Below, piece after piece: positions 20,632 through 41,527 of a stretch of 64,000 nucleotides of DNA. This DNA is from Alloalcanivorax dieselolei B5 (lineage in GTDB: Bacteria; Pseudomonadota; Gammaproteobacteria; Pseudomonadales; Alcanivoracaceae). Each line of letters starts with the position of its first letter. Positions within the stretch are counted from its first letter, which is position 1. The position numbers and the translations under genes are program-made. The stretch spans positions 1,612,001 to 1,676,000 of the forward strand of contig NC_018691.1 in NCBI RefSeq assembly GCF_000300005.1, written 5' to 3'. A model generated the notes under the pieces. That model did no database searches, was not told the origin of the DNA, and worked only from the letters and a program-made list of their open reading frames with translations.

Positions 20632-21633
20632 ATGTCTTTCCAGCATTACAGCTTGATTCAAGCGCCCATGGCCGGCGGTATCAGTGGTGCCCGTTTCGTC
20701 GCCGAAGCGAGCCGGGCCGGCGCGCTCGGTTCGGTGGGCGCCGGCTATTTGAGCGGCGCCGCGATCCTCGAGTCGGCCCGGGGGGTGCGCGACGCCGGCG
20801 GCGATGCGTTCGCCATCAATCTGTTTATCCCGCCGTCGCAAACGCCGGACGCCGAACAAGTGGTAAACGCAAAGGCGGCGCTGCGTTCCTGCTATGCCGC
20901 CGCCGGCGTGGCCATGCCGGAACAGTTCGCGCCGCTGCCGTCTTTTGACGAGCAGTTTGAAGCGGTACTGGAAGCGCGGCCGGCGGTGTTTTCCTACACC
21001 TTCGGCCGTCTGCCCAGGGATCGCATGGACGCCTGCCGCGCGCGCGGTATCGTCCTGGTGGGCACCGCCACCAGCGTGGCGGAAGCGCAAGCGCTGGCCG
21101 AGGACGGCGTCGATGCGGTGGTACTGCAAGGCGAGGAAGCCGGCGGCCATCGCGGGAGCGTCGACCCGCTGGCACCGGGCATGGCGCTGGACGCTCTGCT
21201 GGCGGCCTGCCGGCAAGCGGTGTCGCTGCCGTTGATCGCCGCCGGCGGTTTGATGGACGGCGCTGACATGGCGCGGGTGATGCGTGCCGGTGCCGCCGCC
21301 GCGCAACTGGGCACGGCGTTTCTGCGCTGCCATGAAGCGGACACGGCGGAAGTCTGGAAACAACGGCTGGCGGACGCCGGCCCCGGCGCCACCGGCGTCA
21401 CCCGCGCGGTGTCCGGCCGCTGGGCACGAGGTCTGGCCAACGCCTGGATGGATGAGCGCGCCCCCCAGGACATTGCCCCCTACCCGGAACAACACCGCCT
21501 GACCTCCCCCTTGCGCAAAGGCGCCGGCGCCGATTGGAAAAGCCTCTGGGCCGGCACCGGCGCGCACCGTTCCCGGGAGATGCCGGTGGCGGAGTTGGTG
21601 CGGACGCTGGAAGAAGAATGGAAAAGCAGTTGA
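20632..21633 (+). CDS. Nitronate monooxygenase family protein
   Basis: 333 residues forming an FMN-dependent TIM barrel of the 2-nitropropane dioxygenase family. It begins with IQAPMAGGISGARFVAEASR, the N-terminal flavin-side motif, and has VVLQGEEAGGHRGSVDPLAP with the family His and the phosphate-binding glycine turn LIAAGGLMDGADMARVMRAG (about residues 204-223). It oxidises nitroalkanes such as propionate 3-nitronate. A ribosome site (agggagctaggc) precedes the ATG. The last codons (AGC AGT TGA) coincide with the left end of repeat element A. Confidence 0.9.
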   Translation: MSFQHYSLIQAPMAGGISGARFVAEASRAGALGSVGAGYLSGAAILESARGVRDAGGDAFAINLFIPPSQTPDAEQVVNAKAALRSCYAAAGVAMPEQFAPLPSFDEQFEAVLEARPAVFSYTFGRLPRDRMDACRARGIVLVGTATSVAEAQALAEDGVDAVVLQGEEAGGHRGSVDPLAPGMALDALLAACRQAVSLPLIAAGGLMDGADMARVMRAGAAAAQLGTAFLRCHEADTAEVWKQRLADAGPGATGVTRAVSGRWARGLANAWMDERAPQDIAPYPEQHRLTSPLRKGAGADWKSLWAGTGAHRSREMPVAELVRTLEEEWKSS

Positions 21634-21967
21634 TAGTTGACAGTGGACAGCGAAAAACAAAATTAGCCGCTGTGGGAAGCTTGCCTGCAAGCGAATGGGG
21701 GTTCGCTTCAGCGTTTGGCAATATTCGCCTGCAAGCAAGCTCCCACAGAAAGGAAAGATTGATCCGAGAGAAAAGAGGCCGCGTCCAGGGTTTAGGCGCG
21801 GCCTTTTGGTTTATAAAGATGAAAAAATAATGGAGCAGTGCCAGAACTCGAAAGTTGTGAATTCGCAAATAGCCTTTGCAAGATCGCAAAGTGTGCTTTG
21901 GTCCAGTCTTTATCGCTGTCAACTGTCCACTGTCAACTGCTTTTGTTGTCCACTATCAACTGTCAAC
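21628..21967. mobile_element. Composite palindromic element, copy A
   Basis: The left end runs agttgatagttgacagtgg then acagcgaaaaac. The centre has a REP stem-loop (arms 21670-21696 and 21723-21748). The right end, 21911-21967, repeats the left sequence in inverse, partly doubled. A hairpin with loose ggccgcg/cgcggcc arms lies at 21777-21806. Genes on both sides end inside the element: the nitronate monooxygenase stop on the left and the ygfZ stop on the right. There is no coding capacity. It fills the gap between these convergent genes. Confidence 0.72.
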
Positions 21968-22918
21968 TTTCTTCGGTAGCTCATAAGGCAAATCGAGCGA
22001 CGTTACGTTCAGCGCCTGATCATCAGCGAACAACTCTCCTTCATGGTCCAAACGCACCACCGCGAGCAGGCGGGGGGTGGGTTCGCCGCGGGCGCTGTCG
22101 ACCACTTCGCCGACGGCGCGGCCGTCGGTGTTGCGCAGAGGTTGTCCCGGGGAGAGGGGCGGGCCGTTGTAGGTGAAGGCGGCCATGCGTTGCTTGAGCT
22201 TGCCCTTGAAGTGCATGCGCGCCACCACTTCCTGGCCGGTGTAGCAGCCTTTGTTGAAGCTGACGCCGCCGAGCAGGTCGTAGTTGAGCACCTGGGGCAG
22301 GAACAGATCCTCGCCGCCGGGGTAGATCTGGCCTTCGCCGGCGCCGATATCGAGAAAACGCCAGCCCTCGCCGTCGACCGGGGTGCGGCTTGCCCGCTTA
22401 AGTTGCGCCCGGCTCAGTTCCGCCAGGGCGTCGTCAGCGCCGATCACCAGCAATTGCTCGGTGAGCGGATAACGCAGCAGGGTCAGGCCATCATGGTGGC
22501 GGCCGTGGCCTGCTTCCGGCAGCGGCAGGCCGGTTTGCTCCAGCGCTCCGGCCAGTCCGATCACGCGCAGATCCTCCGCCACTTCAAACGTCACCTTGGC
22601 GCGCAGGCGGTATTTTTCCAGGCAACGGATCACCGTCTCGGCCATGGTCGCCGGGCACAGGATCAGATAGCCCTGGTCATCGCGGATCAGGCGCAGGCTC
22701 ACCAGGCCCCGGCCTTTCAGCGACAGATGCATGGCGGCATGGTGCTCGCCCTGGTCGATCCGTTGCAGGTCACAGGTGAGTTGCCCTTGCAGATAGGACC
22801 CCGCTTCCTCGCCGCGCACCCGCACCACCGCCAGATGGTCGCAGATCGCCAGGGCCGGTGTGGTAACGCCGCCGTTGGCGGGGGAGAGTTCAGCGATCAA
22901 AGAAGACCAAGCGCTCAT
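21956..22918 (-). CDS. ygfZ: Folate-binding Fe-S cluster repair protein YgfZ
   Basis: 320 residues. It is a tetrahydrofolate-binding GcvT relative that helps maintain enzymes with Fe-S clusters. The signature KGCYTGQEVVARMHFKGK is at about residues 222-239 (family K-G-C-Y-x-G-Q-E). I prefer MSAWSSL at 22918 over an ATG 10 codons upstream, since the longer start has no ribosome site or homology. The C-terminus, KKVDS and stop, is written by the right end of element A. E. coli has ygfZ divergent from sdhE (ygfY)-ygfX, and the same layout is kept here, but with an insertion between them. Confidence 0.92.
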   Translation of the reverse strand: MSAWSSLIAELSPANGGVTTPALAICDHLAVVRVRGEEAGSYLQGQLTCDLQRIDQGEHHAAMHLSLKGRGLVSLRLIRDDQGYLILCPATMAETVIRCLEKYRLRAKVTFEVAEDLRVIGLAGALEQTGLPLPEAGHGRHHDGLTLLRYPLTEQLLVIGADDALAELSRAQLKRASRTPVDGEGWRFLDIGAGEGQIYPGGEDLFLPQVLNYDLLGGVSFNKGCYTGQEVVARMHFKGKLKQRMAAFTYNGPPLSPGQPLRNTDGRAVGEVVDSARGEPTPRLLAVVRLDHEGELFADDQALNVTSLDLPYELPKKVDS

Positions 22919-22979
22919 AGTGTTCCCGGTTGTTGGCTGGTCACACATGATAGGGAATCGGGGTGGGTGCTGTCAGCCG

Positions 22980-23250
22980 AAGAGCCTGTTTAAGGTCTCT
23001 ACGCCGCCGCGTTGCCGCTGGAAAAGCCGCCAGACGACGTCATGGACTGCAGGCTCTGGTGGGTCCAAAGTCAAAGGCCGGGGCGTCGTCTGGCGGCTTT
23101 TCCAGCGCAACCCGAAGGGCCGGGCCCCTTTTTCCGCCAGGCCGCGATTACGCTTGTTTATGTAGAATGACTACACCGCACAATCGGAATCACGACCTGA
23201 CGAAAAAATGAACTCCGGCGCGGTGGCGTAGAGACCTTAAACAGGCTCTT
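22980..23250. mobile_element. 271-bp MITE-like element with nested inverted repeats
   Basis: Terminal inverted repeats of about 31 bases (aagagcctgtttaaggtctc at 22980, inverse at 23220-23250) match with a single mismatch. A second inverted pair lies within: 23011-23039 against 23084-23110, with one base missing. No transposase frame is present and no target duplication is obvious. It sits between ygfZ and sdhE, so it separates sdhE from its native upstream region. A tagaat at 23163 could act as an outward -10, but no good -35 is seen. Confidence 0.7.
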
Positions 23251-23313
23251 ACCATATCGCCGGAACGTCGCCTGACATACAATTGCTCGCCTGCAATCGT
23301 ATTGGGGAAAGAC

Positions 23314-23571
23314 ATGTCGCTGGCCGATCTGAAACGTCGTTATCGCTGGCAGTGCCGTCGTGGCGCTTCCGAGGTGGAGGTGGTGCTGTACGGCTATCTG
23401 GATCATCACTTCGAGCAGGATAGCGAGGCCAACCGGGCGCTGTTCCCGAAACTGCTGGAATGCGCGGACGTCGACATGCTGGAGTGGTTCACCGCCCGTT
23501 CGGAACCGCAAGACCTGGAGTTGCGCGCCTATGTCCGGCACATACTCGGCCTCGTTTCCACCCCGTCTTGA
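23314..23571 (+). CDS. sdhE: Succinate dehydrogenase flavinylation factor SdhE
   Basis: 85 residues. SdhE promotes covalent attachment of FAD to the flavoprotein subunit of succinate dehydrogenase and related enzymes. The essential RGxxE motif is seen in WQCRRGASEVEVVL (about residues 12-25), followed by FPKLLECADVDMLEWF. The start is at ATG 23314 with ggggaaagac upstream; a TTG four codons earlier is less likely. It overlaps ygfX by 41 bases, the usual coupled pair. Confidence 0.93.
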   Translation: MSLADLKRRYRWQCRRGASEVEVVLYGYLDHHFEQDSEANRALFPKLLECADVDMLEWFTARSEPQDLELRAYVRHILGLVSTPS

Positions 23572-23965
23572 GCTGGGTCCTTCGGCCTGGCCGCGCCGTC
23601 TGCGCCTTGCCGCTTTGCTGATTGCCGCGCTGGCGCTGTGGCACAGCGCGGTGCCGGCGTGGGCCTTGCCGCCGCTGCTGGTAGGGCTGGCCTGGGGGTT
23701 GTGGCAGTGGACGCCGCCGCAGGTGAGGGCGGTGGCGGTGACCGCCACGGAAGTGACTCTGGTGTTGGAAAATGGGGATCTGGAGGATCGGGGTTCGGAA
23801 GGGCACAGGGTCACGGTGACGGCGCCGTTCCGCGCCTGGACGCCCGGGTCCTGGCTGGCACTGCGCTGCCCCGGCCGGGGCTGGGTCTGGATCTTCGCCG
23901 ACCAGGCCGGGGAGGCGGCGCTCACGCCGCTGCGTCAGGTGCTCTGGCTCAATCGGCGGCGCTGA
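23531..23965 (+). CDS. ygfX: YgfX-like inner membrane protein
   Basis: 144 residues. Two adjacent membrane segments lie at about residues 22-60 ([20 protein letters not shown] and [15 protein letters not shown]), followed by a beta-rich cytoplasmic tail with [11 protein letters not shown]. The size, topology and position directly after sdhE fit YgfX (CptA in E. coli, reported as a membrane toxin paired with SdhE/CptB; that interpretation is disputed). Sequence identity is low in this family, so the call rests partly on context. The 3' end overlaps the end of nadB on the other strand by 17 bases. Confidence 0.75.
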
Positions 23966-25586
23966 CCGGCGAAAGGGCGCCCTCGTGCAGGGGGCTGTTG
24001 TCCGGCACCAGAACGCTGTCACGTGGCGGATCCTGGGGGCCGGGAAACTCGCGCATGAAATGCAGGCCCCGGCTTTCCCGGCGCTGCAGCGCCGAGCGGA
24101 TGATCAGGTCGGCGATCACCACCAGGTTGCGCAGCTCCAGCAGATCGTTGCTGATGTGGTAGTTGCTGTAATAGTCGCTGATTTCCTTCTGCAGCAAATC
24201 CACTCGGTGCTGCGCCCGCTCCAGCCGTTTGACCGTACGCACGATGCCCACGTAGTCCCACATGAAGCGCCGCAACTCATCCCAGTTGTGGCTGATCACC
24301 ACGTCTTCGTCGGAGTCGGTGACCAGGCTGTCGTCCCATTCCTCGGCGCCGCGCGGCAGCGGCAGACCGGCAAGGTGCTCGCTGATGTGGCGGGCCACGG
24401 AGCGGCCGTACACCAGGCATTCCAGCAGGGAATTGCTGGCCATGCGGTTGGCGCCGTGCAGGCCGGTGAAACTGGTTTCGCCCAGCGCGTACAGACCGGG
24501 CAGGTCGGTTTCGCCGTTCTCGTTGATCATCACCCCGCCGCAAGTGTAATGGGCCGCCGGCACCACCGGGATCGGATCGCGGGTGATGTCCAGACCCAGT
24601 TGCAGGCACTTGGCGTAGACGGTGGGGAAGTGCTCGATGATGAAATCCGCCGGCTTGTGGCTGATGTCCAGATACAGGCAGTCGGCGCCCAGGCGCTTCA
24701 TCTCGTGGTCGATGGCGCGGGCCACCACGTCCCGTGGCGCCAGTTCCGCCCGTTCATGGAAGCGCGGCATGAAACGTTCGCCGTTGGGCAGCAGCAGTTT
24801 GCCGCCTTCGCCACGGATCGCCTCGGTGATCAGGAAGCTCTTGGCCTTGGGGTGGTACAGGCAGGTGGGGTGGAACTGCATGAATTCCATGTTCGCCACC
24901 CGGCAGCCGGCGCGCCAGGCCATGGCGATGCCGTCGCCGGTGGCCACGTCCGGATTGGAAGTGTACAGGTACACCTTGGAGGCGCCGCCGGTGGCCAGCA
25001 CCACCGAGCGGGCCAGAATGACATCGGTTGCGCCGCTGCGGATATCGTGCACATAGGCGCCGCAGCAGCGCCGCTCGCCATTGTGCACCTGGGTGATCAG
25101 GTCCACCGCCACCCGGTGTTCGAACCGTTCCACATTGGTTTTTTCCTTGACGCGGTCGATCAGCGTGCTGGAAATCGCCACGCCGGTGGCGTCGGCGGCG
25201 TGGATGATGCGCCGGTGGCTGTGGCCGCCTTCGCGGGTCAAGTGGTAGGGCAGGGGCGCGTCCTGGCCGCCGGGCATGCGGGTGAAATCCACCCCTTGTT
25301 CAATCAGCCAGCGGATCGCTTCCGGGCCGTTTTCCACGGTGAACCGCACCGCGTCGTCGTGGCACAGGCCGGCGCCGGCCACATGGGTGTCCTGGACATG
25401 GCTGTCCATGGAATCGGATTCATCCAGCACCGCCGCCACGCCGCCCTGGGCGTAATAGGTGCTGGCGTGGGTCAGTTCACCCTTGGAAAGCAGTGCCACG
25501 CGGGCATCGTCGGGCAGGCGCAGGGCCACGGTCAGGCCGGCGGCGCCGGAACCGATGATCAGAACGTCGTAATGAAAGGTTGCCAT
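23949..25586 (-). CDS. nadB: L-aspartate oxidase
   Basis: 545 residues. It oxidises L-aspartate to iminoaspartate with FAD, the first step of NAD synthesis. The FAD dinucleotide fold is [16 protein letters not shown] (residues 6-21). The substrate block [20 protein letters not shown] (about 119-138) and the flavin contact [20 protein letters not shown] (about 350-369) identify this subgroup rather than succinate dehydrogenase. The C-terminal helical domain is present. It is divergent from the sigma-E operon, as in Pseudomonas and E. coli (nadB-rpoE). Confidence 0.96.
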
Positions 25587-25954
25587 AGCTATCCGCGGTT
25601 ATCCGCGCCGCCGGCTCGACACCGTGACCGGGGACGATACGCAAAGCGGCGGATTATGGAGGTGAATTGTTGAACCATTGTGAAAACCGGCCATGTTCAG
25701 GGAGGCCAGTATAGCGGTCCAGGTAACTCCTGTTACAATACCGCGCTTCAATCCTGGCTGGCGGCGCCGAATTCGCTCCGGCACGGCCAGGGCAAGGCGA
25801 AGAACGCGACGTTCCGGGGGGCACAGTGCTTCTGCAACACCAGCTCACGACGGGAAAAACAGGGCCATCGGCGCCTGGTCGGTATGCGCCGCGCGTGCCG
25901 TGCCGACGGGATGCCGCCGCTCGTCTTGCCACGACCACCCCGAAGGAGTGCTAG
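25587..25954. other. nadB-rpoE divergent intergenic region, no gene seen
   Basis: 368 bases without a supported gene. It should contain the nadB promoter and the sigma-E operon promoters. A short gtaac/gttac inverted pair lies at 25723-25736. I could not assign a sigma-E -35/-10 with confidence. Short open frames here have no ribosome sites. Confidence 0.5.
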
Positions 25955-26539
25955 GTGTCCGACGAACAGTTGGTCAAAAAAGCCAAGATTGGTGATCAGC
26001 GCGCCTTCGAAGTGTTGGTACTGAAGTACCAGCAACGCATTTTCGCTCTCATCAGCCGTTACGTCCGCGACCAGGATGAGGTCCAGGACGTGGCTCAGGA
26101 AGCCTTTATCAAAGCCTGGCGCGCCTTGCCGCGGTTCCGCGGTGACAGTGCCTTCTATACCTGGCTTTACCGCATCGCCGTCAATACCGCCAAGAACCAT
26201 CTGGTGGCCCAGGGGCGCCGTCCTCCGGGCACCGACCTGGATGCCGCCGAGGCGGAACAGTACAGTGGTGCGGAAATCCTGCACGAGATTGGAACCCCTG
26301 AGTCCCATGTGTTGTCTGAGGAGCTGGAGGCAGTAATCCACCGGGCCATCGAGGCACTGCCCCAGGAACTCAAGACCGCCGTGACCCTGCGTGAATTCGA
26401 GGGCCTCAGCTATGAGGACATCGCGGTGGTCATGGAATGTCCGGTGGGAACGGTGCGTTCGCGCATCTTCCGGGCTCGGGAAGCCATCGACGAGGCGGTG
26501 CGGCCCCTGCTAGGGTCGCAACGTGGAGACAAAGGGTGA
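25955..26539 (+). CDS. rpoE: Envelope-stress sigma factor RpoE/AlgU
   Basis: 194 residues from a GTG start with cgaaggagtgctag upstream. It is an ECF sigma factor controlling envelope stress and, in Pseudomonas, alginate genes. Region 2 includes RIFALISRYVRDQDEVQDVA and FYTWLYRIAVNTAKNHLV; region 4 includes LKTAVTLREFEGLSYEDIA and CPVGTVRSRIFRARE. It is first in the rpoE-mucA-mucB-mucC-mucD operon. It is probably autoregulated and held by MucA until envelope stress. Confidence 0.96.
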   Translation: MSDEQLVKKAKIGDQRAFEVLVLKYQQRIFALISRYVRDQDEVQDVAQEAFIKAWRALPRFRGDSAFYTWLYRIAVNTAKNHLVAQGRRPPGTDLDAAEAEQYSGAEILHEIGTPESHVLSEELEAVIHRAIEALPQELKTAVTLREFEGLSYEDIAVVMECPVGTVRSRIFRAREAIDEAVRPLLGSQRGDKG

Positions 26540-26543
26540 GGTC

Positions 26544-27134
26544 ATGAAACGGGACTTTGAAGTGTTGTCCGCCCTGCTGGACGGTGAAACCAATGAATTC
26601 GAGACGCGGCGGGTGCTGCGGGATCTGGATACGCTGGATGAGAGCGATCTGGATACCCTGGCCCGTTGGCAACTCACCCGTGATGTGATGCATGGCCAGG
26701 CGGTTCGGCCGGTGCCATCGTCCTTTAACGCGCGTCTGTCCGAGGCGCTGGCGGCGGAATCGGCGCCGGCGCGCCGGTCCGGCCTGGTGGGTGGTTTCGC
26801 CCGGGTGGCGGTGGCCGCCTCCGTGGCCGCGGCCACCGTGGTGGGCTGGCAGTACTGGAGTGGGCCCTCCGGCTCTTCCCTGTCTTCCGGCGCGCCGCAA
26901 AACACCCTGGCCGCCAATGATCAGCGCATGAGCCGTCCGTTCGGCGATCTTTCGCTGGTGTCGCAAAGTGCCCGTGGCGGTGCCGGCGCGGTGCCGGTGC
27001 AGGTCAACGCGGCCCAGCCGCGGGTCAACGCCATGCTGATGCGGCACAGTGAGTTCGCCGCGCGCCACAGCGGGCAGGGCATGATGCCTTATGCCCGTCT
27101 GGTGAGCATGGACGCCCGCAACGGAGCACGCTAA
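26544..27134 (+). CDS. mucA: Anti-sigma-E factor MucA/RseA
   Basis: 196 residues from ATG 26544, after ggtgaggtc. The N-terminal cytoplasmic domain that clamps the sigma factor includes LSALLDGETNEFETRRVL and WQLTRDVMHG. A single membrane segment (ARVAVAASVAAATVVGWQYW, about residues 85-104) is followed by a periplasmic tail ending PYARLVSMDARNGAR. Regulated proteolysis by AlgW/DegS-type and RseP-type proteases would release the sigma factor. It starts 4 bases after rpoE. Confidence 0.94.
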   Translation: MKRDFEVLSALLDGETNEFETRRVLRDLDTLDESDLDTLARWQLTRDVMHGQAVRPVPSSFNARLSEALAAESAPARRSGLVGGFARVAVAASVAAATVVGWQYWSGPSGSSLSSGAPQNTLAANDQRMSRPFGDLSLVSQSARGGAGAVPVQVNAAQPRVNAMLMRHSEFAARHSGQGMMPYARLVSMDARNGAR

Positions 27135-27137
27135 CGA

Positions 27138-28118
27138 ATGCTGCGAACCCTCGCTTTTGGTCTGACCCTGATCGCGCCGCTGCCGGCGCTGCTGCTCGCC
27201 CCGCCGGCCTCGGCTCAGGAAGCCCCCGCGGCGACCCTGCTGCAATCCATGTCCGAGGCGTCCCGGCAACTCAACTATAAAGGCCGTTTCCTCTATCAGT
27301 TTGGTGCCGAAGTGAGCACCATGGAGGTGAGTCATGCGGTCTTCGACGATCATCAATATCAGCGTCTGACCCATCTCGACGGCCGCCTGGTGGAAGTGCT
27401 GCGGCGTGGACCGGAACTGGTTTGCCTGCATTCCAACGGCACCCTGACCCGGATCTCCGACGACGCCGACGGCTCCCCGCTGGAATTCCAGGACCGGCTG
27501 GCGAGCGCCATCCCTTCCCAGTACAACGTTCTCCTCGACGGTGACGGCCGCGTCGCTGGCCGATCGACCCTGCGCGTGCGCGTGGCGCCGCTGGACAACC
27601 ACCGTTACGGTTACCGGCTGTGGCTGGATGACGAAAGCAAACTGCTGCTGAAGTCGGAAATGGTGGATGGCAACGGCCTGGCGCTGGAGCGAGTGGAATT
27701 CGTCACCCTGGATTTGAGTCCCGGGCTGCAACGGGCAGACTTCGATGTGCCCGAGACCCACAGCGAACGGGCCCTGGAAAACGTGGCGTCTTCCCGGCCC
27801 GGTAATTTCGTCATTGAGGCGCAGTGGCTGCCCGGCGGTTTCGAGGCCGTGGATCAGGACTGGCGCCGTGTCGACACGGTGGCGGATCCGGTGGCGGCAC
27901 AGAGTTACAGTGACGGTCTCGCCACCTTCACCGTTTTCGCCGAAGCCACCGACGGCGCCAGCCCCGAAGAGGGGGTCAGCCGGGTCGGTCCCACCGTGGC
28001 GATCAGCCGCCACACCCAGAACGGGCCAGTTACCTTCCTTATGACCCTGGTGGGTGAAATCCCCCAGCCCACGGCCGAACGGGTCATGCAATCAATACAG
28101 GTCTCCACGGCGCAATGA
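27138..28118 (+). CDS. mucB: Periplasmic regulator MucB/RseB
   Basis: 326 residues with a cleavable signal peptide (TLIAPLPALLLAPPASAQEA). It binds the periplasmic part of MucA and shields it from the site-1 protease, responding to lipids and lipopolysaccharide. The body has the MucB blocks SRQLNYKGRFLYQFG, LLDGDGRVAGRSTLRVRVAP and FVIEAQWLPGGF. It starts 3 bases after mucA and overlaps mucC by 4 bases. Confidence 0.94.
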   Translation: MLRTLAFGLTLIAPLPALLLAPPASAQEAPAATLLQSMSEASRQLNYKGRFLYQFGAEVSTMEVSHAVFDDHQYQRLTHLDGRLVEVLRRGPELVCLHSNGTLTRISDDADGSPLEFQDRLASAIPSQYNVLLDGDGRVAGRSTLRVRVAPLDNHRYGYRLWLDDESKLLLKSEMVDGNGLALERVEFVTLDLSPGLQRADFDVPETHSERALENVASSRPGNFVIEAQWLPGGFEAVDQDWRRVDTVADPVAAQSYSDGLATFTVFAEATDGASPEEGVSRVGPTVAISRHTQNGPVTFLMTLVGEIPQPTAERVMQSIQVSTAQ

Positions 28119-28576
28119 TCGAGGAGCACGGGCGCGTGGTGGCACGGGAGCCCGGCGCGATCTGGGTGGAAACCGTGCGGGCCGGTGTCTGTGATGCCTG
28201 CCAGGCCCGTAAGGGCTGCGGCCATCGTCTGATCAATCAAAGCGGCGGGCAGCGTGCCCGTCTTCGCGTGTTGACCCGCGACACTTTCCAGGACGACGAG
28301 GAAGTGGTGGTGGGCATTCCCGAAGGCGCTTTGCTGCGCGGTGCTCTGTGGGTTTACGCTTTACCCCTGGTTTTACTGTTTGCGGGCGCTTTGCTCGGCG
28401 GCGCCTTGCCGTTGCCGTTCGACGGCGCCGCGCTGTTCGGGGTGCTGGGCCTGCTGCTGGGTTTCATCATCAATCGTTGGCGCGATCGCGGTGATCGCGG
28501 CCGGGCGTATCAACCAACGGTCCTGCGCCGCCGTCCGGTGCGGGAGGATGGGGCGGTCAGGATCGTTTCGCCATAA
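28115..28576 (+). CDS. rseC: RseC/MucC family membrane regulator
   Basis: 153 residues. The N-terminal cytoplasmic part has a cysteine cluster (VCDACQARKGCGHRL) shared by the RseC family, possibly a redox or metal site. Two membrane segments follow (ALWVYALPLVLLFAGALLGG and AALFGVLGLLLGFIINRW), and the tail is basic. RseC modulates sigma-E activity and has a link to reducing power (Rsx/Rnf) in some species. It overlaps mucB by 4 bases in the operon. Confidence 0.9.
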   Translation: MIEEHGRVVAREPGAIWVETVRAGVCDACQARKGCGHRLINQSGGQRARLRVLTRDTFQDDEEVVVGIPEGALLRGALWVYALPLVLLFAGALLGGALPLPFDGAALFGVLGLLLGFIINRWRDRGDRGRAYQPTVLRRRPVREDGAVRIVSP

Positions 28577-32840: not shown

Positions 32841-32844
32841 CAAC

Positions 32845-33905: not shown

Positions 33906-34806
33906 ATCCCGTCGCTGCGGTCTGGTGGCGATCATCGGCCGCCCCAACGTGGGCAAATCCACGCTGATGAACCATTTGATCGGCCAGAAGGTGAGTATCA
34001 CCTCGCGTAAGCCGCAGACCACCCGTCACCGTATCCACGGCATTCTGACCCGGGACGACTGCCAGATCGTGTTCGCCGATACCCCGGGCATCCATACCGG
34101 CCAGCAACGGGCACTCAACCGGGCCATGAACGAAGCGGCCATGTCGGCGTTGTCCGATGTGGATGTCATCTGTTTCATGGTGGACAGCGACAAGTGGAAT
34201 GAAGGTGACGAGCACGTACTGTCATTGCTGGCCCGGGCCGGCGACATTCCGGTGATCCTGGTGGTCAATAAAGTGGATCGCCTGGACGACAAAGCCGCCA
34301 TGCTGCCGTTGCTGGACAAACTCAACCAGCGTCACGATTTCGCCGAAGTGATTCCGGTGTCCGCGCTGGGCGGACACAACCTGGACGTGTTGGAACAGGC
34401 GCTGGTTTCCCGCTTGCCGGAAGGCGATTTCTGGTTCGACGAGGACCAACTCACCGATCGCAGCCTGCGTTTCATGGCGGCGGAAATCATCCGCGAAAAA
34501 GTGGTCCGGCAACTGGGTCAGGAAGTCCCCCATCAGGTCACCGTGGAAATCGACCTGTGGGAGGACGGACCCCGTGTCACCGACATCGCCGCCACCATTC
34601 TGGTGGAACGGCGCGGGCAGAAAAAAATTCTCATCGGCGATAAAGGCGAGCGCATCAAGAGCATCGGCACCCAGGCCCGCCGCGACATCGAAAACCTGAT
34701 CGAGCGCCGCGTCATGCTCAATCTGTGGGTGAAGATCAAGGCTGGCTGGTCCGATGACGATCGCGCCCTGCGTTCCCTGGGCTATGACGACTCGCGACAA
34801 TCCTGA
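33898..34806 (+). CDS. era: GTPase Era
   Basis: 302 residues. It is a Ras-like GTPase for 30S maturation that binds the 3' end of 16S rRNA. Motifs: VAIIGRPNVGKSTLMNHLIG (G1), RKPQTTRHRIHGI (switch), VFADTPGIHTG (G3) and LVVNKVDRL (G4). The C-terminal KH domain includes RGQKKILIGDKGERIKSIGT. The ATG at 33898 lies inside the end of rnc. Translation is probably coupled to rnc and to recO, which overlaps the 3' end by 23 bases. Confidence 0.97.
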   Translation: MSESRRCGLVAIIGRPNVGKSTLMNHLIGQKVSITSRKPQTTRHRIHGILTRDDCQIVFADTPGIHTGQQRALNRAMNEAAMSALSDVDVICFMVDSDKWNEGDEHVLSLLARAGDIPVILVVNKVDRLDDKAAMLPLLDKLNQRHDFAEVIPVSALGGHNLDVLEQALVSRLPEGDFWFDEDQLTDRSLRFMAAEIIREKVVRQLGQEVPHQVTVEIDLWEDGPRVTDIAATILVERRGQKKILIGDKGERIKSIGTQARRDIENLIERRVMLNLWVKIKAGWSDDDRALRSLGYDDSRQS

Positions 34807-35476
34807 CGGCGCCAACGGCCTCGAACCGGCCTGGCTGCTGCATCGCCGGCCGTTCCGCAACACCAGTCTGATTCTCGACCTGTTCCTGCCCGGCGGCGGC
34901 CGGGTCGGCGCGGTGGCCCGCGGTGGCCGTCGTAACCCGGCGCTGGCGCCGTTCGTGCCGCTGTGGGTGCAATTGCAGCAGGGCAGCGGCGAACTCCATA
35001 CCCTGCGTCAGGTGGAACCGCGCGGCGTGGCCGTCGCCCTGAGCGGTAACGCCTTGTATTGCGGCTTCTACCTCAACGAGCTGCTGGTACGCTTGCTGCA
35101 CCGCGACGATCCTCATCCGGACCTGTGGCCCGCCTACGAACACACGTTGAACGAGCTGAAAGGCGACACGCCCCTGGATGTGTCCCTGCGCCGTTTCGAA
35201 ATGGTGCTGCTGGAAGAGGTGGGCTACGGCCTGGTGCTCGAACACGATGGCGAAGGGCAACCGCTATCGCCGGAACTGCGCTACGGCTGGGTGCCGGACC
35301 TGGGGCTGATACCCAACAAAAACGGCCACTCCGGCGCCGACCTGCAAGCCCTGGCCGAAGACCACTGGAGCCCGGCGGTCCGCCGCATGGCCAAACAACT
35401 ACTGCGCGAAGCCCTGGCGCCACACCTGGGCGGAAGACCGCTGAGGAGCCGCGAATTATTTCGCGGCACCAGCTAA
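34784..35476 (+). CDS. recO: DNA repair protein RecO
   Basis: 230 residues from ATG 34784. It is a RecF-pathway mediator that loads RecA. The N-terminal OB fold includes PAWLLHRRPFRNTSLILDLF and RVGAVARGGRRNP. The middle contains NALYCGFYLNELLVRLLHRD and SLRRFEMVLLEEVGYGL, typical of RecO. The zinc-binding cysteines of some RecO proteins are absent, as in other gammaproteobacteria. It ends the lepA-lepB-rnc-era-recO run; pdxJ, which normally follows on the same strand, is here inverted. Confidence 0.92.
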   Translation: MTTRDNPDGANGLEPAWLLHRRPFRNTSLILDLFLPGGGRVGAVARGGRRNPALAPFVPLWVQLQQGSGELHTLRQVEPRGVAVALSGNALYCGFYLNELLVRLLHRDDPHPDLWPAYEHTLNELKGDTPLDVSLRRFEMVLLEEVGYGLVLEHDGEGQPLSPELRYGWVPDLGLIPNKNGHSGADLQALAEDHWSPAVRRMAKQLLREALAPHLGGRPLRSRELFRGTS

Positions 35477-35640
35477 CAGCAAAAAAACGATTTTTAGCCG
35501 CTGTGGGAGCTTGCCTGCAAGCGAATGGGGTGCGCTCGGGCGTTTGGCAATATTCGCTTGCAGGCAAGCTCCTACAGTGGCTAAAGACCACCTGTTTTTG
35601 TTTTTCGCTTTTCGCTGCCAACTGTCCACTATCAACTATT
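35477..35640. mobile_element. Composite palindromic element, copy B
   Basis: The REP stem arms are 35501-35526 and 35552-35577, with a loop reading cgctcgggcgtttggcaat. The right end (35614-35638) is the common gtcaactgtccactatcaac type with one change; the left end is eroded (aacagcaaaaaaac). It lies between convergent recO and pdxJ; the pdxJ stop codon falls inside its right end. Confidence 0.7.
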
Positions 35641-36360
35641 CTTTATGATTTCCCGCATTTCCCGCACCGCCTCATGCAGGCCGCTGATGACTGCCTGGGC
35701 GATAATGGCGTGGCCGATGTTGAGTTCGTTGATGCCAGGGATGGCGGCGATGTCGCGGGTGTTGTGGTAGTGCAGGCCATGACCAGCGTTGACGATCAGT
35801 CCGGCGTTCAGACCCAGTGCCACGCCTTCTCGTACCCGTTCCAGTTCCGCCAGCCGTGCCGCTTCGTTGGTGGCGTCGGCATAATGCCCGGTGTGGATCT
35901 CGATGGCCGGGGCGCCACAGCGACGGGCTGCTTCGATCTGCGTGGCGTCGGCGTCGATGAACAAGGACACTTCGATGCCCGCTTCGCCCAGGCGGTCGCA
36001 GCAGGCCTTGATCCAGGCTTCGTTAGCGGCCACGTCGAGACCGCCTTCGGTGGTCAGTTCTTCCCGTTTCTCCGGTACCAGACAGCAATGAGCCGGACCA
36101 ATGCGGCGGGCGATGCCGACCATCTCCTCGGTGGCCGCCATTTCCAGATTCATGCGGGTTTGTAGTGTTTGCGCCAGCAGCTCTACATCACGATCCTGGA
36201 TATGGCGCCGGTCCTCGCGCAGGTGCACCGTGATCCCGTCGGCCCCCGCCTGCTCCGCCACCAGCGCCGCCTGCACCGGCTCCGGATAACGGGTGCCGCG
36301 GGCCTGTCGCAGCGTGGCGATATGATCGATATTGACGCCGAGAAGAACGGAAGAAGGCAT
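35632..36360 (-). CDS. pdxJ: Pyridoxine 5'-phosphate synthase
   Basis: 242 residues starting [20 protein letters not shown]; the longer frame upstream runs into element C. It condenses aminoacetone phosphate with deoxyxylulose phosphate to form pyridoxine phosphate. Signature blocks: [19 protein letters not shown] with the active-site His, [18 protein letters not shown], and [20 protein letters not shown] with the phosphate loop. The gene is on the minus strand and bracketed by elements B and C. In Pseudomonas and E. coli pdxJ follows recO on the same strand. No strong ribosome site is seen. Confidence 0.95.
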
Positions 36361-36419
36361 GGGGATGAGTACCGTGGGTTGGAAATGAACCGATATGATA
36401 ACGGAAAAGGCAATTGGAA

Positions 36420-36629
36420 GTTGACAGTTGATAGTGGACAGTTGACAGCGAAAAAACGAAAACAACAGGCCTCCTTAGCTACTGCGGGAAGCTTGCTTGC
36501 AAGCGAATGGGGGCCCTCAGACGTTTAGCAATATTCGCTTGCAGGCAAGCTCCCACAACGGCTGAAGATCGAGCTTCTTTGTCTTTATTGTTTTTCGCTG
36601 TCAACTGTCCACTATCAACTGTCAACTGT
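36420..36629. mobile_element. Composite palindromic element, copy C
   Basis: The left end, from 36420, reads gttgacagttgatagtggac then agttgacagcgaaaaaac. The REP arms are 36482-36508 and 36532-36556. The right end (36590-36629) is the inverse of the left, with 29 bases nearly identical. It lies between pdxJ (start side) and barA; the barA stop codon lies in its right end. This is the best-preserved copy for defining the ends. Confidence 0.75.
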
Positions 36630-39329
36630 CTTTCCGTGTTCTTGCACTTGCTCAATCTCCGCCAATAACTGCCCCACCAAGGCATCCAACTGCGCTTCCG
36701 GCTGATGGCCCTTGAGGCCTTCCTCGAGGCGGCGGGCGGCTTGTTCCAGGCGCGGAGTGCCGCAGTAGCGGGTGGCGCCGTGGAGGCGGTGGACCCGTTC
36801 CAGCAGCTCTTCCAGGTCGCCGCTTTGCGCCAGGTCACGAATGCCGGGGCCGTCCTGTTCCAGATTGTTGAGCAGCATCTCGAACATGTCGCGGGCCAGG
36901 GCGTCGCGGCCGCCGGCGCGTTTGCGGCCCAGTTCCTCATCCACCACCGGGGTGTCCGGCTCGATGTCGATGTCAGCGGTCTTGTTTTCCGATTGTGCCG
37001 GTGTGCTGCTTTGTCGACCGAGAACCCAGCGCTCCAGAGTATGGCGAAGCTGCTCCTCGGTGATCGGTTTGCTCAGGTAGTCGTCCATGCCGGCGGCCAG
37101 CAGGGCGCGCTTTTCGTTTTCCAGGGCGTGGGCGGTGAGCGCGATGATCGGCGTGCGCTGGCTTTCGCCTTCCCGCTCACGCAGGGCCAGGGTGGTTTCC
37201 AGACCGTCCATGCCGGGCATGTGCACGTCCATGAAAATCAGGTCGAAGGTGCCCTGGCTGAACGCCTCCAGGGCCTCCTGGCCACCGGCGCAGGGCACCA
37301 CCTCGGCGCCCAGTTCCTCGAGAAAAATGCGCGCCAGTTTGAGATTGCCGGGATGATCGTCCACCACCAGCACGCGCGGATGGTAGCCCAGGGGCGTCAG
37401 CAATTCCTGGTGGCGGGAGCGGTCGCCGCCCAGGCCGCTCAATTCCAGCAGAGCATCGCGCAAGCGGCGGCGGGTGGCGGGTTTGCCCAGCACCCGGCAA
37501 TGGGGCTGGTCGGCCAGTTCGTCGGCCAGATAGTCGCCGTTGTTGGCCAGCACCAGCACCGGTGCCTGACTGTGCCGCGCCAGCCGCTGGATCAGCGGGG
37601 CCAGCCCCACCGGGTCGCGGGTCATGGCCGGCACGCCGACCACATAGAAATCGGTTTCCGGCAGGTTCTCCGCCGCCAGATGTGAATCCAGCACGTCCAT
37701 GCCCTGGATTTCGCTGATCCGCATGCGCCAGCCGGAAAACATATGGTACAGACCCAGGCGGGCGTACTCGCTGGCTTCCACCAGCGTTACCGACAGCCGC
37801 GCCAGCTCCGCCGGCGGTGATTCCGGGCGGGTGCCCACATCGCGCTCGCAGCGCAGCGTGAACCAGAAGGTGGAGCCCTGGCTGGGGGTGCTGTCGATGC
37901 CGATCTCGCCGCCCATGCCTTCCACCAGACGCTTGGAGATGGCCAGCCCCAGCCCGGTGCCGCCGGCCCGGCGGCTGGCGCTCTGGTCGGCCTGGGTGAA
38001 GGCGTTGAACAGGCCGCGCTGCACGTCCTCGCTGAGCCCGTTGCCGGTGTCGGTGACGGTGATCTTGACCACCGCCTCGGCGCCTTTCTGCTCCTCCAGC
38101 ATGGCCCGTACCACCACCGAACCGTGCTCGGTGAATTTGATCGCGTTGCTGACCAGGTTGGTGAGCACCTGGCGGATGCGCAGCGGGTCGCCGAGCAGGT
38201 GGGAGGGCAGATCGGAATAGATGATCGCCGCCTGCTCCAGGCCTTTCTCCTGGGCCAGTGGCGCCAGCATGGTCTGCACGTCCTCGATGATGTCGTGCAG
38301 GTTGAGGGGAATGTGTTCCAGCGACAGGCGCCCGGCCTCGATCTTGGAGAAGTCGAGGATGTCGTTGATGATCGACAGCAACGCCTCGGCGCTCTTGCGG
38401 ATGGTGTTCAGATAATCCTGCTGGCGGGGCGACAGATCCGAGCGTTCCAGCAGCCGGGTGAAGCCGATGATGCCATTCAGCGGTGTGCGAATCTCATGGC
38501 TCATGTTGGCCAGGAACTCGGACTTGATCTGGCTGGCCTTGAGCGCTTCCTTGCGCGCCATGTCCAGTTCGATGTTCTGGATTTCGATGGTCTCCAGGGT
38601 TTCGCGCAAATCCTGGGTGGCCTGATCCACGTTCTTCTGCAGCTCCGCCTGGGCATCGTCCAGGGCGCCCACCATATTGCGCAGGCCGTCTTCCAGATCG
38701 GCCAGTTCGCCCAGGGCGCCGGTCTTTGGCGGTGGGCTGAGATCGCCGTCGCGGACCCGCCGCACGGTGTCCAGCAGGCCGCCGATGGGCAGGGTGACCT
38801 GGGCCGCCAGTCGCGAGGCGGGAATCAGCGCCAGCGCCATCAGCAGCATCACCACGCCGAACATGGTGAGCATGGATTCGAGGATTTCCACGTACTGGCC
38901 CTGGCGGGAAAACTCCACCGTCAGCAGCTGATTGGGGCGGCCCGGCAGGGGGCGGACCAACTGCCAACTGGAGTCGGTGAGCAGCCGGGCGCCGCCCACC
39001 TCATTGGTTTCACTGCGTTCCACCGGCCGCAGCCGTGGCCCCGCGTGCAAATGCCAGCCGGCACGGTGATCGGCCAGGCTGGTGGCGCGGACATCCGGTT
39101 GTTCCAGCAACTCGCGCAGCAACTGGTCGCGGGAGGTGTCCGGCATTCCTTCCAGGGCGGCCAGCCGGGCGGCATAGCTGTCGATGATCAATTGCTGACG
39201 CAGCGCATCGTCCACGCGCAGTTCCAGAATACGATTGATCAGCGCATAGCCGCCGACCACCAGCGCCGCCAACAGGGCGGGCAGGGCGGTCATCGCCATG
39301 ATGCGGGTGCGCAGACTGGAGCGGGCCAT
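36615..39329 (-). CDS. barA: Hybrid sensor histidine kinase BarA/GacS
   Basis: 904 residues. It is the sensor of the Gac/Rsm (BarA/UvrY) pathway. Order: membrane segment near residue 12-30, periplasmic sensor, second membrane segment ([20 protein letters not shown], about 155-175), HAMP, coiled coil, HisKA with [20 protein letters not shown], HATPase with [10 protein letters not shown] and [10 protein letters not shown], a degenerate receiver, a receiver with [13 protein letters not shown] and [13 protein letters not shown], and a C-terminal HPt with [13 protein letters not shown] response regulator (UvrY/GacA) is not in the window. The C-terminus TVDS and stop come from element C. Confidence 0.96.
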
Positions 39330-39416
39330 ATTCGCCTTATTGCTATTCGGTGGCGGTCATTATGCCGGAGTTTGCGGTGGCTGCCAGTGGCGGGGGGAGG
39401 CTTGTCCGCTTACACG

Positions 39417-39492
39417 CCGACACGCAACACGCTTGCACGCGAATGAGGAGGCGGCCAGAGGCCGCATTTGCTGGTTATTAAAAGCGTTGACA
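39417..39492. repeat. Dispersed ~78-bp repeat, copy 2
   Basis: It matches 14204-14281 in gcacgcgaatgaggaggcgg, the ggcc palindrome and gcgttgac, with short differences in the middle. It is immediately preceded by cacgcaacacgc, the same heptamer motif as near copy 1. Confidence 0.55.
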
Positions 39493-39516
39493 GGGCTGCC
39501 TAGCCTGGGAACCTTC

Positions 39517-39596
39517 GTGCCAGCGTGCCAGCGTGCCAGCGTGCCAGCGTGCCAGCGTGCCAGCGTGCCAGCGTGCCAGCGTGCCAGCGTGCCAGC
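39517..39596 (+). repeat. Tandem octamer array (gtgccagc x10)
   Basis: Ten exact head-to-tail copies of gtgccagc, 42 bases before the cysM start. The array is open in the cysM frame (reading VPACQRAS repeats, period 24 bases), but there is no start or ribosome site that would make it coding. Such exact arrays change copy number by slippage and could alter cysM transcription. Confidence 0.9.
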
Positions 39597-39638
39597 GAAC
39601 TATGGGCCCGCCATCGGGCTTGGGCTACAATGCCGCCC

Positions 39639-40538
39639 ATGAACTACAAAACCATTGAATCCACGGTCGGTAATACGCCGCTGGTGCGGCTGCGGCGGCT
39701 GCCGGGGAACACGACGAACACCATTCTGGTGAAGCTGGAAGGCAATAATCCCGCCGGTTCGGTGAAGGATCGCCCGGCGCTCAACATGATCCGCAAGGCG
39801 GAGGAGCGCGGCGAGATCCAGCCGGGGGACACGCTGATCGAGGCCACCAGCGGTAACACCGGCATTGCCCTGGCCATGGCGGCGGCCATGCGCGGCTACA
39901 AGATGACGCTGATCATGCCGGCCAATCAGAGCCAGGAGCGCCGCGACGCCATGGCCGCCTACGGCGCCGAGTTGATCTCGGTGAGCGCCGAGGAGGGCAT
40001 GGAAGGGGCGCGGGATCTGGCCCAGGCGATGCAGGCGCGTGGCGAAGGCAAGGTACTGGATCAGTTCGCCAACCCCGACAACCCGCTGGCGCATTATGAA
40101 TCCACCGGACCGGAAATCTGGCGCGACACCGGCGGCGGCATCACCCATTTCGTCAGCTCCATGGGCACCACCGGCACCATCATGGGCTGCAGCATGTATT
40201 TGAAGGAGCAGAACCCGGCGATTCAAATCGTTGGCCTGCAGCCCTCCGACGGCGCATCGATTCCCGGTATTCGCCGCTGGCCCAAGGAATACCTGCCGAG
40301 CATCTACGATGACGCGCGGGTGGATCAGGTGATCGACATGACCCAGCAACGGGCCGAGGACACCATGCGCCGTCTGGCCCGGGAAGAGGGCATCTTCTGC
40401 GGGGTCTCCTCCGGTGGCGCGGTGGCCGGTGCCCTGCAGCTTTCCGAACAATTGGAAAACGCCGTGATCGTGGCAATCGTCTGTGACCGGGGCGACCGTT
40501 ACCTGTCCACCGGTGTGTTTTCCTCCGGTCAGGAGTAA
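39639..40538 (+). CDS. cysM: Cysteine synthase B
   Basis: 299 residues. It is a PLP enzyme making cysteine (or S-sulfocysteine) from O-acetylserine. The PLP lysine is in NNPAGSVKDRPALNMI (about residues 35-50), the substrate loop is EATSGNTGIALAMAAAMRG, and the PLP phosphate loop is GTTGTIMG. RRWPKEYLPSIYD and the absence of the CysK C-terminal extension favour CysM. ATG 39639 is preferred; ATG 39630 is in frame. There is no clear ribosome site. It is divergent from barA, with the octamer array in the promoter gap. Confidence 0.94.
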   Translation: MNYKTIESTVGNTPLVRLRRLPGNTTNTILVKLEGNNPAGSVKDRPALNMIRKAEERGEIQPGDTLIEATSGNTGIALAMAAAMRGYKMTLIMPANQSQERRDAMAAYGAELISVSAEEGMEGARDLAQAMQARGEGKVLDQFANPDNPLAHYESTGPEIWRDTGGGITHFVSSMGTTGTIMGCSMYLKEQNPAIQIVGLQPSDGASIPGIRRWPKEYLPSIYDDARVDQVIDMTQQRAEDTMRRLAREEGIFCGVSSGGAVAGALQLSEQLENAVIVAIVCDRGDRYLSTGVFSSGQE

Positions 40539-40545
40539 GCAGGGC

Positions 40546-41325
40546 ATGAACGTACTGGTTTTTGATATCGAGACCATCCCGGACCTGGACGGCGGTCGCC
40601 GTCTCTATGATCTGGACGGGCTCAACGACAAGGACACCGCCAGCGCGCTGTTCAATCTGCGCCGTCAGGAAAACGGCACCGAGTTCCTGCGTCTGCACCT
40701 GCATCGGATCGTGGCGATCTCGGTGGTGCTGCGCTCCGCCCAGGGCATCAAGGTCTGGTCCCTGGGGGACGAGGCCAGCAGTGAAAAAGAACTGATCGAG
40801 CGCTTTTACGACGGTATCGAACGGTTCACGCCGCAGCTGGTGAGCTGGAACGGCGGTGGTTTTGATCTGCCGGTGCTCAACTATCGCGCGCTCAAGCATG
40901 GCGTGGTGGCGCGGCGGTTCTGGGAAACCGGCGGCGAGGACACCAGCTTCCGCTTCAACAATTACATCAGCCGCTATCACCAGCGCCATCTGGACGTGAT
41001 GGACCAACTGGCCATGTTCAACGGCCGCGCGGTGGCGCCGCTGGATCAGATCGCCTCGCTGCTCGGCTTCCCCGGCAAGATGGGCATGAGCGGCGCCAAG
41101 GTGTTCGACGCCTTCCAGGAAGGCGATATCAAAGGCATCCGCGACTACTGCGAGACCGATGTGCTCAACACCTGGCTGGTGTTCCTGCGCTTCCAGTTGA
41201 TGCGCGGCGAGATCGACGCCACCGGCTACCAGGCGGAACTGGACCTGTTGCGTGATTATCTGCAAGCCGAGAACCTCCCGCATTTCCAGGCGTTCCTGGA
41301 GACCTGGGAATCCGTTGACGGTTGA
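40546..41325 (+). CDS. Predicted 3'-5' exonuclease (DnaQ-like, PolB exonuclease-related)
   Basis: 259 residues. Exonuclease motif I is VLVFDIETIPDLDGGR (residues 3-18, Asp and Glu), motif II is LVSWNGGGFDLPVLNYRALK (about 100-119), and motif III is IRDYCETDVLNTWLVF (about 200-215, YxxTDxxxT type). This is the family often annotated as WlaX-like or DNA polymerase B 3'-5' exonuclease type. The cellular substrate is unknown. The ATG is at 40546 with gcaggg upstream, 7 bases after cysM, so probably co-transcribed. The final codons GTT GAC GGT TGA belong to the left end of element D. Confidence 0.87.
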   Translation: MNVLVFDIETIPDLDGGRRLYDLDGLNDKDTASALFNLRRQENGTEFLRLHLHRIVAISVVLRSAQGIKVWSLGDEASSEKELIERFYDGIERFTPQLVSWNGGGFDLPVLNYRALKHGVVARRFWETGGEDTSFRFNNYISRYHQRHLDVMDQLAMFNGRAVAPLDQIASLLGFPGKMGMSGAKVFDAFQEGDIKGIRDYCETDVLNTWLVFLRFQLMRGEIDATGYQAELDLLRDYLQAENLPHFQAFLETWESVDG

Positions 41326-41527
41326 TAGTGGACAGTTGACAGCGAAAGACAAAAAACAAGAGCAGGGAGGGTGATCTTCAGCTGCTGTAGGAGCTTGCCT
41401 GCAAGCGAATATTGCTAAACGCCCGAGCGAACCCCATTCGCTTGCAGGCAAGCTCCTACAGCGGCTAAAGATCGAGCTTTTTGCCTTTTTCTTATTCGCT
41501 GTCAACTGTCCACTATCAACTGTCAAC
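41318..41527. mobile_element. Composite palindromic element, copy D
   Basis: The left end runs gacggttgatagtggacagt then tgacagcgaaagac. The REP arms are 41385-41410 and 41436-41461, with the loop inverted relative to copies A-C. The right end is 41499-41527. It separates the exonuclease gene from rlmD and ends 13 bases before the rlmD ATG, where no ribosome site is seen. Confidence 0.75.

Follow-up and report, generated by a model that had tools for sequence, protein, structure and literature searches.

Alloalcanivorax dieselolei B5 belongs to a group of oil-degrading marine bacteria, and its genome, a single contig of 4,928,223 bases (NC_018691.1), carries dispersed palindromic elements whose ends are arrays of seven-base units placed at the stop codons of the flanking genes. 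Four of them lie in the 64,000-nucleotide stretch at positions 1,612,001–1,676,000 analysed here (the window), and among the elements collected from this genome 72 of the 76 element ends that face a gene stop have that stop within −17 to +13 bp (offsets are counted from the start of the array, negative for a stop that precedes it and positive for a stop inside it). We consider it a real, though not quite even, possibility that these elements work as the common transcript end of the genes on their two sides.

Architecture of the elements

In its full form an element end, or arm, spans 31 bp and consists of four heptads followed by AGC (AGTTGAC, AGTTGAT, AGTGGAC, AGTTGAC, AGC). The arms stand inverted at both ends of a variable interior, which holds a doublet of repetitive extragenic palindromic (REP) sequences, a GC hairpin, a small open reading frame (ORF) or almost nothing, and as 31-bp terminal inverted repeats they give the elements a trait of miniature inverted-repeat transposable elements. 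Pairs at our own and the named loci are 78–462 bp long, with three further ones of about 1.4 kb that carry a nested insertion sequence (IS), and one exact sequence runs across the four unlike units in 46 of 74 own arms, ‘own’ standing throughout for the window’s genome.

The own elements come from 44 stretches around the matches listed for one heptad family (AGTTGAC) and from the window. They make up 56 entries, namely 37 intact inverted pairs (<2 kb) and 19 single arms whose partner is absent or degenerate; element 1 of the window gives two entries, having two nested right arms. Genes were called for this work by codon usage, and the calls are not an annotation. An exact 24-base end sequence occurred in 107 stretches of titled public genomes, and the 80 listed, from which own records may be left out, were all Alcanivorax, Alloalcanivorax or metagenome-assembled genomes of Alcanivoracaceae/Pseudomonadales. 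A search of the window with Rfam at gathering thresholds returned transfer RNA only.

Arms are anchored at stop codons

The four window elements reported in an earlier note, made from the sequence alone, are all present (Table 1), and the five genes whose stops it had placed inside element ends, those for nitronate monooxygenase, ygfZ, pdxJ, barA and an exonuclease, do end there. With recO as a sixth, all six gene 3′ ends that face a window element stop within an arm, and the remaining two element ends face gene starts. The description of element 1 needed correction, as this element holds two nested right arms and a GC-rich hairpin besides its REP doublet.

Among the own entries, 76 arm ends face a gene stop and 17 a gene start. 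At the 72 anchored ends (ygfZ being counted twice, once for each nested arm), the stop lies before the arm in 42 cases, overlaps the first bases of the arm in 4 and falls inside it in 26. Native stops that precede an arm do so by 2–17 nt, and the 26 in-arm stops use the arm’s own TGA, at +6 in 14 cases and at +13 in 12. The four outlying stop-facing ends are at −68, −69, −144 and −230. Ends that face a gene start are scattered from −7 to −506, and 4 of 17 fall within 17 bp (Fisher test against the stop-facing ends, p = 2e-9). A second gene-finding rule, which looks to 120 bp past each arm and takes a stop at −20 to +27 as near, gave near stops at 58 of 65 own ends, 97 of 110 ends in named relatives and 12 of 12 in other stretches, where the sites of relatives are non-independent by descent and some titled records and some of the genomes numbered G000–G012 look like identical assemblies.

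Such a distribution is far from that of chance landing. Had ends been inserted uniformly into gaps without heptads at the same loci (30 between convergent and 149 between co-directional genes), between 11% (length-weighted) and 36% (unweighted) of them would lie within 17 bp of a stop, against 95% observed; the observation holds, extends beyond the window and ties the elements to gene 3′ ends. REP clusters provide an internal comparison, since 20 of the 36 in the own loci lie outside heptad elements: their 30 stop-facing ends spread from −229 to +4, with 6 within 17 bp, compared with 72 of 76 for the arms (p = 2e-14). Free REPs being scattered and arms not, it is the arms that are anchored.

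The reading frame of the in-arm stops had been cited as a further regularity, always the same. This sameness is forced, because the TGA in AGTTGA is always preceded by AGT, and as a property of the heptad itself it was discarded as independent evidence. What stands is that the third frame, in which the arm has no stop, is absent: all 26 own in-arm stops fall in two frames (P = 2.6e-5 for random frames and independent sites), and none of the genes chosen by the second rule, with the search extending to 120 bp past the arm, ends more than 27 bp past the arm start. Selection against read-through offers a simple reason for this absence. Tabulated over the other copies, as the earlier note had proposed, neither distance nor frame to the stop is random.

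Anchoring is more general than stop donation

The arm supplies the stop in 26 of the 76 own stop-facing cases, so that the notion of ends that evolved to supply a stop is right about the effect; as a purpose it is not supported. Arrays of two further families, AAGCTNC and ACGCNNC, hold no stop codon. Of the 25 such arrays that face a stop, 20 nevertheless lie near a native one (−20 to +27; 6 of 10 for AAGCTNC, 14 of 15 for ACGCNNC), and in none of the 25 is the gene’s stop part of the array. Supplying a stop is thus not the root cause, and anchoring is the more general property.

Where C-termini could be read against orthologues without the element, they differ. The PolB-type 3′–5′ exonuclease, translated by eye, ends in WESVDG* in the own genome, G011 and G001 and in WESVDS* in G012; the ends are WEGS* in G007, WEAASN* in G006 and WEAAGN* in G008 and G010, the last two with the AGTTAAC type. 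In G003 and G009, both without an array of three units, the protein ends in WQKGAADV*, and in G005 its SDV* end lies inside a GACGTCN array. At this one site of the window, the sister genomes G011 and G001 also carry the AGTTGAC family. Direct evidence for a new arm comes from one locus, L143, compared with the window at about 40525: an arm without partner is present in L143 and absent from the window and from locus L107, the flanks are 85% identical, and the arm has replaced the last codons and a short gap and supplies the stop.

Several heptad families share the layout

A scan for tandem periodicity, in loci mostly chosen for the AGTTGAC family, gave 355 runs of period 7, of which 264 belong to that family and 91 do not, one of the latter being a masked stretch of N. 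Periods 5, 8, 10 and 11 gave 4, 5, 4 and 2 runs in the same scan and period 13 gave 8; period 14, a multiple of 7, gave 226, and periods 6, 9 and 12 gave 37, 33 and 56, as would be expected of coding DNA. The families seen are AGTKGAY, AGTKAAY, AGTTNAA, AAGCTNC, ACGCNNC, GACGTCN and GATNCAG. With all loci taken, arrays are anchored in 69 of 75 cases for AGTKAAY, 11 of 15 for AGTTNAA, 14 of 15 for ACGCNNC and 6 of 10 for AAGCTNC. Exactly four units are found in 260 of 278 distinct AGTKGAY arrays of at least three units, in 72 of 96 for AGTKAAY and in 15 of 27 for AGTTNAA. The consensus 31-mers of the AGTTGAC and AGTTAAC types differ by one base per unit. Units of the AGTKGAY, AGTKAAY and AGTTNAA families contain no run of three G, which leaves them unable to form G-quadruplexes.

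Exact three-unit patterns were counted on both strands of 13 congeneric genomes, overlapping matches within one array being counted separately; reversed-pattern controls gave 0–10 for AGTKGAY, 0 for AGTKAAY, 0–13 for AAGTTNA and 0 for AAGCTNC. AGTKGAY is most frequent in G000 (150), G012 (97) and G007 (73), less so in G001 (30), G006 (14), G010 (10), G011 (9), G005 (4) and G008 (2), and it scores zero in G002, G003, G004 and G009. AGTKAAY reaches 78 in G008, 72 in G010, 58 in G011, 48 in G001, 40 in G006, 13 in G012, 12 in G007 and 3 in G004, with zero in G000, G002, G003, G005 and G009. AAGTTNA is confined to G002 (111), G005 (85), G009 (75), G003 (40) and G006 (7), and AAGCTNC to G005 (119), G002 (81), G010 (13), G006 (7) and G008 (5), the other eight genomes having none in either case; much of the AAGCTNC count comes from a few very long tracts. 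Class-wide, AAGCTNC was found in 0 of 229 genomes, only two of them other genomes of the same order, which gives the result little bearing on near relatives.

Pure heptad tracts reach 18 units. Very long pure tracts, of about 10 to 20 and more units, are seen in relatives (G002 and G005; L091:5067–5209; L055:3256–3332), and from them we read that slippage expansion continues beside the fixed four-unit form. GATNCAG and AAGCTNC-like repeats, both paired with an inverted counterpart, occupy the same gene ends in G003 (loci L217 and L221). The window itself contains two arrays of ACGC or ACACGCA units (Table 1), and (ACACGCA)n recurs inverted at 14297–14345 and, in shorter form, near 14985.

Table 1. 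Heptad elements, arms and further arrays in the window (window coordinates)
Feature	Position	Strand	Remarks
Weak irregular ACGC-type array	14203–14229	+	Right after stop 14194–14196; read by eye
(ACACGCA)n array	14823–14871	+	8 bp after TAG 14812–14814; unit without stop codon, same class
Element 1	21628–21968	.	Left arm, REP doublet, GC-rich hairpin (~21775–21806), two nested right arms
Element 1, left arm	21628–21651	+	Three heptads + AGC; nitronate monooxygenase TGA 21631–21633, offset +6
Element 1, inner right arm	21918–21938	-	
Element 1, outer right arm	21948–21968	-	ygfZ stop 21956–21958, offset +13
Element 2	35471–35637	.	Degenerate left arm, REP doublet (~35500–35583), right arm
Element 2, left-arm remnant AGCTAACAGC	35471–35480	+	One heptad + AGC; recO TAA 35474–35476
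Element 2, right arm	35617–35637	-	pdxJ stop 35632–35634, offset +6
Element 3	36419–36627	.	REP doublet between two full four-heptad arms
Element 3, left arm	36419–36449	+	Faces pdxJ start, 58 bp away
Element 3, right arm	36600–36627	-	barA stop 36615–36617, offset +13
Element 4	41313–41528	.	REP doublet between two full four-heptad arms
Element 4, left arm	41313–41343	+	PolB-type 3′–5′ exonuclease stop 41323–41325, offset +13
Element 4, right arm	41501–41528	-	Faces rlmD (rumA) start, 51 bp away

Element sites in related genomes

For 26 own genes that end at an element, the corresponding 3′ ends were looked up in relatives, and 20 sites per genome, in differing sets, were obtained from G011, G001, G012 and G003, whose median flank identities to the own sequence are 95.2%, 96.2%, 92.7% and 83.7%. 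At these sites G011 has 16 arrays of AGTTAAC type, 1 of AGTTGAC type, 1 unclassified heptad and 2 ends with none, and G001 has 14, 4, 0 and 2, respectively; G012 has 4 of AGTTAAC type, 14 of AGTTGAC type, 1 unclassified and 1 with none. The distant G003 has no array at 17, other families at 2 and an unclassified heptad at 1. The difference in AGTTGAC type between G011 (1 of 20) and G012 (14 of 20) is significant (p = 4e-5). An ‘unclassified’ heptad has a chance rate of about 5%, and ‘none’ refers to the tested end only: at site k1 of G011 and G001 the tested end scores ‘none’ and the other arm is there. The genome-wide counts agree with this comparison, though G001 holds both the AGTKGAY and the AGTKAAY families.

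Interiors were compared at the same sites. Those of G011 lack homology to the own interior in 10 of 13 cases, those of G001 in 8 of 12 and those of G012 in 6 of 13, with own interiors at different sites (138 of 171 without homology) as the null. Relatedness is above the null in G012 (p = 0.009) and not in G011 (p = 0.72) or G001 (p = 0.27); the direct comparison of G012 with G011 (7 of 13 versus 3 of 13 related) is not significant (p = 0.23). Relative to the two closest sisters, arm and interior thus mostly look exchanged at a gene end that stayed occupied, on small numbers. Identical but inverted interiors were seen in 2 of 13 comparisons between G011 and G001 and in 6 of 19 between the own genome and titled loci fetched by the AGTTGAC pattern.

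The element at L014:3578–4039 (related loci L177, L196 and L248) carries in its interior a small ORF, which we take to resemble the 23S rRNA intervening-sequence or four-helix-bundle protein. Its interior is close to that of G012 and much more diverged in G011 and G001, although their flanks are closer, as if the cassette had been exchanged whole. At the recO end, the array is longer in G012, G001 and G011 than the one-heptad remnant of the window. The pdxJ segment between elements 2 and 3 (window 35471–36627) is inverted in G001 and G011 (loci L162 and L164), which joins recO to the pdxJ start; read from this inversion, the elements act as recombination points.

REPs, transposases and nested insertion sequences

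The earlier note had suggested a search for a linked transposase of the REP-associated tyrosine transposase (RAYT) type. RAYTs do exist in the genome: one, at L241:1007–1468 (NF047646, 132 bits, cut-off 80), has on its flanks REPs of the class that many elements contain, and a second lies at L240 (86 bits, cut-off 80). Five Y1 transposase loci, two of them scanned and identified as RAYT, proved free of AGTTGAC-type arms to a distance of about 1 kb, and a RAYT was therefore rejected as the writer of the arms; the enzyme of L241 may account for the REP interiors, though not for the arms. That the elements as a whole are REPINs mobilized by a RAYT, with extended ends, is accordingly very improbable in spite of this resident transposase and its bordering REPs, as many elements hold no REP (28 or 32 of 52 stop-facing ends, by two rough patterns) and more than half of the REP clusters in the own loci are arm-free and not anchored at stops.

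Three copies of about 1.4 kb had been candidates for autonomous elements and were rejected. Nested in the interior of all three is what seems to be a single two-ORF IS, about 1.2 kb long and presumably of IS3 type (L012:3260–4490, L023:7975–9200 and L039:3580–4810, approximate positions), which we interpret as a separate insertion. Among the elements looked at, no other copy with a transposase between its arms was noticed. With the IS present in three elements, it may be that the elements, or what they enclose, serve as landing sites for IS. Target-site duplication was likewise rejected, as none of the 37 pairs has a direct repeat of at least 3 bp at its two junctions.

A possible common transcript end

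If transcripts of both flanking genes end at the elements, the array, as the first 30 or so nucleotides after the stop, would hold the terminating ribosome clear of the hairpin that follows, and the giant stem, flanked by U-rich sequence, would end or protect both transcripts. Copies would arrive preferentially at gene 3′ ends; selection would then clear any copy that disrupts a gene, a promoter or the end of a reading frame, which would explain the missing third frame, and in time the occupants would give way to copies from the heptad family active in the species concerned.

Several features are consistent with such a role. All five elements folded are predicted to form hairpins of −44.6 to −146 kcal/mol, energies that were taken without a shuffled control and follow from the 31-bp inverted arms; single hairpins were predicted for L015 (214 nt, −140 kcal/mol), window element 4 (−146 kcal/mol) and the 78-bp element of L050 (−44.6 kcal/mol). 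Over the 74 ends of the 37 pairs, the outer flank has the consensus GCYTTT beyond both arms (AAAGGC on the incoming side), an A/G-rich strand entering and a T-rich strand leaving, the arrangement of a bidirectional terminator. By a rough terminator finder, a canonical hairpin followed by a T-run is present at 14 of 52 element ends and at 16 of 147 heptad-free ends (p = 0.01), and 8 of the 14 hairpins lie 64–80 nt after the stop. Bidirectional intrinsic terminators share with the elements a place between convergent genes, a GC hairpin (in some interiors) and a U-rich outer flank. They differ in that the usual terminator stem is far shorter than arms of about 31 bp with loops of about 100 nt, and in that most interiors here are without a canonical terminator by the rough finder. 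For the spacer, work in E. coli provides a precedent: a terminator close behind the stop is repressed by the ribosome, and full effect needs more than 27 nt, according to the account in PMC4824070, a figure beside which the 28 nt of four heptads may be set.

A number of observations weigh against a transcript-end function brought by arriving copies. No canonical terminator was found at 38 of 52 element ends, and REP-type ends have the fewest (3 of 20). The distance from stop to hairpin is not distinctive, the heptad-free medians being 70.5 nt for 6 convergent and 31.5 nt for 10 co-directional ends. Some arms are turned towards gene starts, where a spacer is unneeded. Four units are not universal: the mode is three in AAGCTNC (11 of 19) and ACGCNNC (15 of 29), with up to nine. 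Last, insertion as such is not demonstrated, given the lack of target duplication, and the cleanest comparison of an empty with a filled site, L143 against the window, is a replacement rather than a simple insertion.

Origin of the arms

The arms might never have moved at all, having grown by slippage at gene 3′ ends, been inherited with their sites and been homogenized by gene conversion. Rehm et al. cite a proposal that polymerase slippage is the cause (PMC4692102), and long pure tracts exist; the AGTTGAC and AGTTAAC 31-mers stand one base apart per unit, sites are shared at 95–96% flank identity and seldom with the distant G003 (where 3 of 20 carry some heptad and one of the three is unclassified), and the GACGTCN array that G005 has at the exonuclease gene is similar to the native GACGTCTGACG of G003. 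Growth in place is nevertheless doubtful. It sits poorly with four unlike units that hold one exact sequence in most own arms, and with same-site interiors that in G011 and G001 are unrelated to the own ones about as often as interiors at different own sites. The more distant G012 shares interiors above this null, though not significantly more than G011 does, and the pattern suggests that whole elements were exchanged, not arms alone. One may go further and regard the gene 3′ ends of this bacterial family as inheritable slots, at which a dedicated process writes heptad-armed palindromes at stops and, by lineage and in most slots, swaps whole elements for those of another heptad family, so that AGTTAAC appears to have replaced AGTTGAC in G001 and G011; we hold this to be rather unlikely as well.

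Survivorship alone would be another account of the same positions: elements would land anywhere, and purifying selection would spare copies at dispensable 3′ ends with a prompt stop. The absent third frame and the scatter of start-facing ends are what it predicts, and the genome is compact, with median heptad-free gaps of 48–49 bp between convergent and between +/+ neighbours and of 97 bp between −/− neighbours. We nonetheless judge it unlikely to suffice, since uniform landing falls far short of the anchoring seen, free REPs of the same loci have remained unanchored, and arrays stand at the same gene ends in sister species. A common transcript end to which copies arrive preferentially, with selection acting afterwards, is the account we tentatively prefer.

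Relation to described repeats and implications

A literature search did not find arrays of this sort described in Alcanivorax. The earlier statement that no element of this behaviour had been described does not hold more widely, as GGGAATC arrays in Xanthomonas were already known (PMC4692102). Rehm et al. (2015) counted 186 and 183 such arrays in two Xanthomonas genomes, mostly of four units, often near or overlapping stops on the coding strand and forming 70 and 75 inverted convergent pairs; the pairs lie mostly between the same genes in the two species, with sequence variation, and the arrays are linked to G-quadruplexes, a structure with which the authors connect the number of four units (PMC4692102). 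Those GGGAATC and GGGGA(C/T)T repeats of Xanthomonas and Nostoc resemble the present ones in their seven-base units (mostly four in Xanthomonas), proximity to stops, coding-strand orientation and inverted pairs, 37 of the 56 own entries being intact pairs here. The present units differ in having no G-runs and in falling into several families that vary between species at the same sites, and the present arrays bound a variable interior, are placed within a few bases and meet the stop in two of three frames. The case thus belongs to the kind described by Rehm et al.; what it adds are units that form no quadruplex, anchoring that is exact to the base and can donate the stop, an interior enclosed by arms, and families that differ from one another at fixed sites.

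Geobacter metallireducens also has tandem heptanucleotides, dispersed as elements with four units (49 copies) or with five; these are putatively regulatory, those of four units occur within genes as well, and the portions of the paper available to us mention no anchoring at stops (PMC2700814). REPs within 15 nt of a stop in E. coli are reported to affect translation (the RepRanger paper, PMC12306157). REPINs and their RAYTs (PMC3116915, PMC12306157) are comparable in that REP doublets form the interior of many elements here, and differ in that the heptad arms lie outside the REPs and free REPs are unanchored.

A stop-hugging layout of inverted pairs, mostly of four units and without quadruplex capacity, suggests that what counts is position, palindromy and perhaps length, and not G-tracts. 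Sister species that hold different families at matching gene ends also make it possible to test, by the comparison of close strains, how such repeats originate. The exonuclease and its orthologues, last, indicate that the C-termini of proteins can be rewritten by a repeat element.

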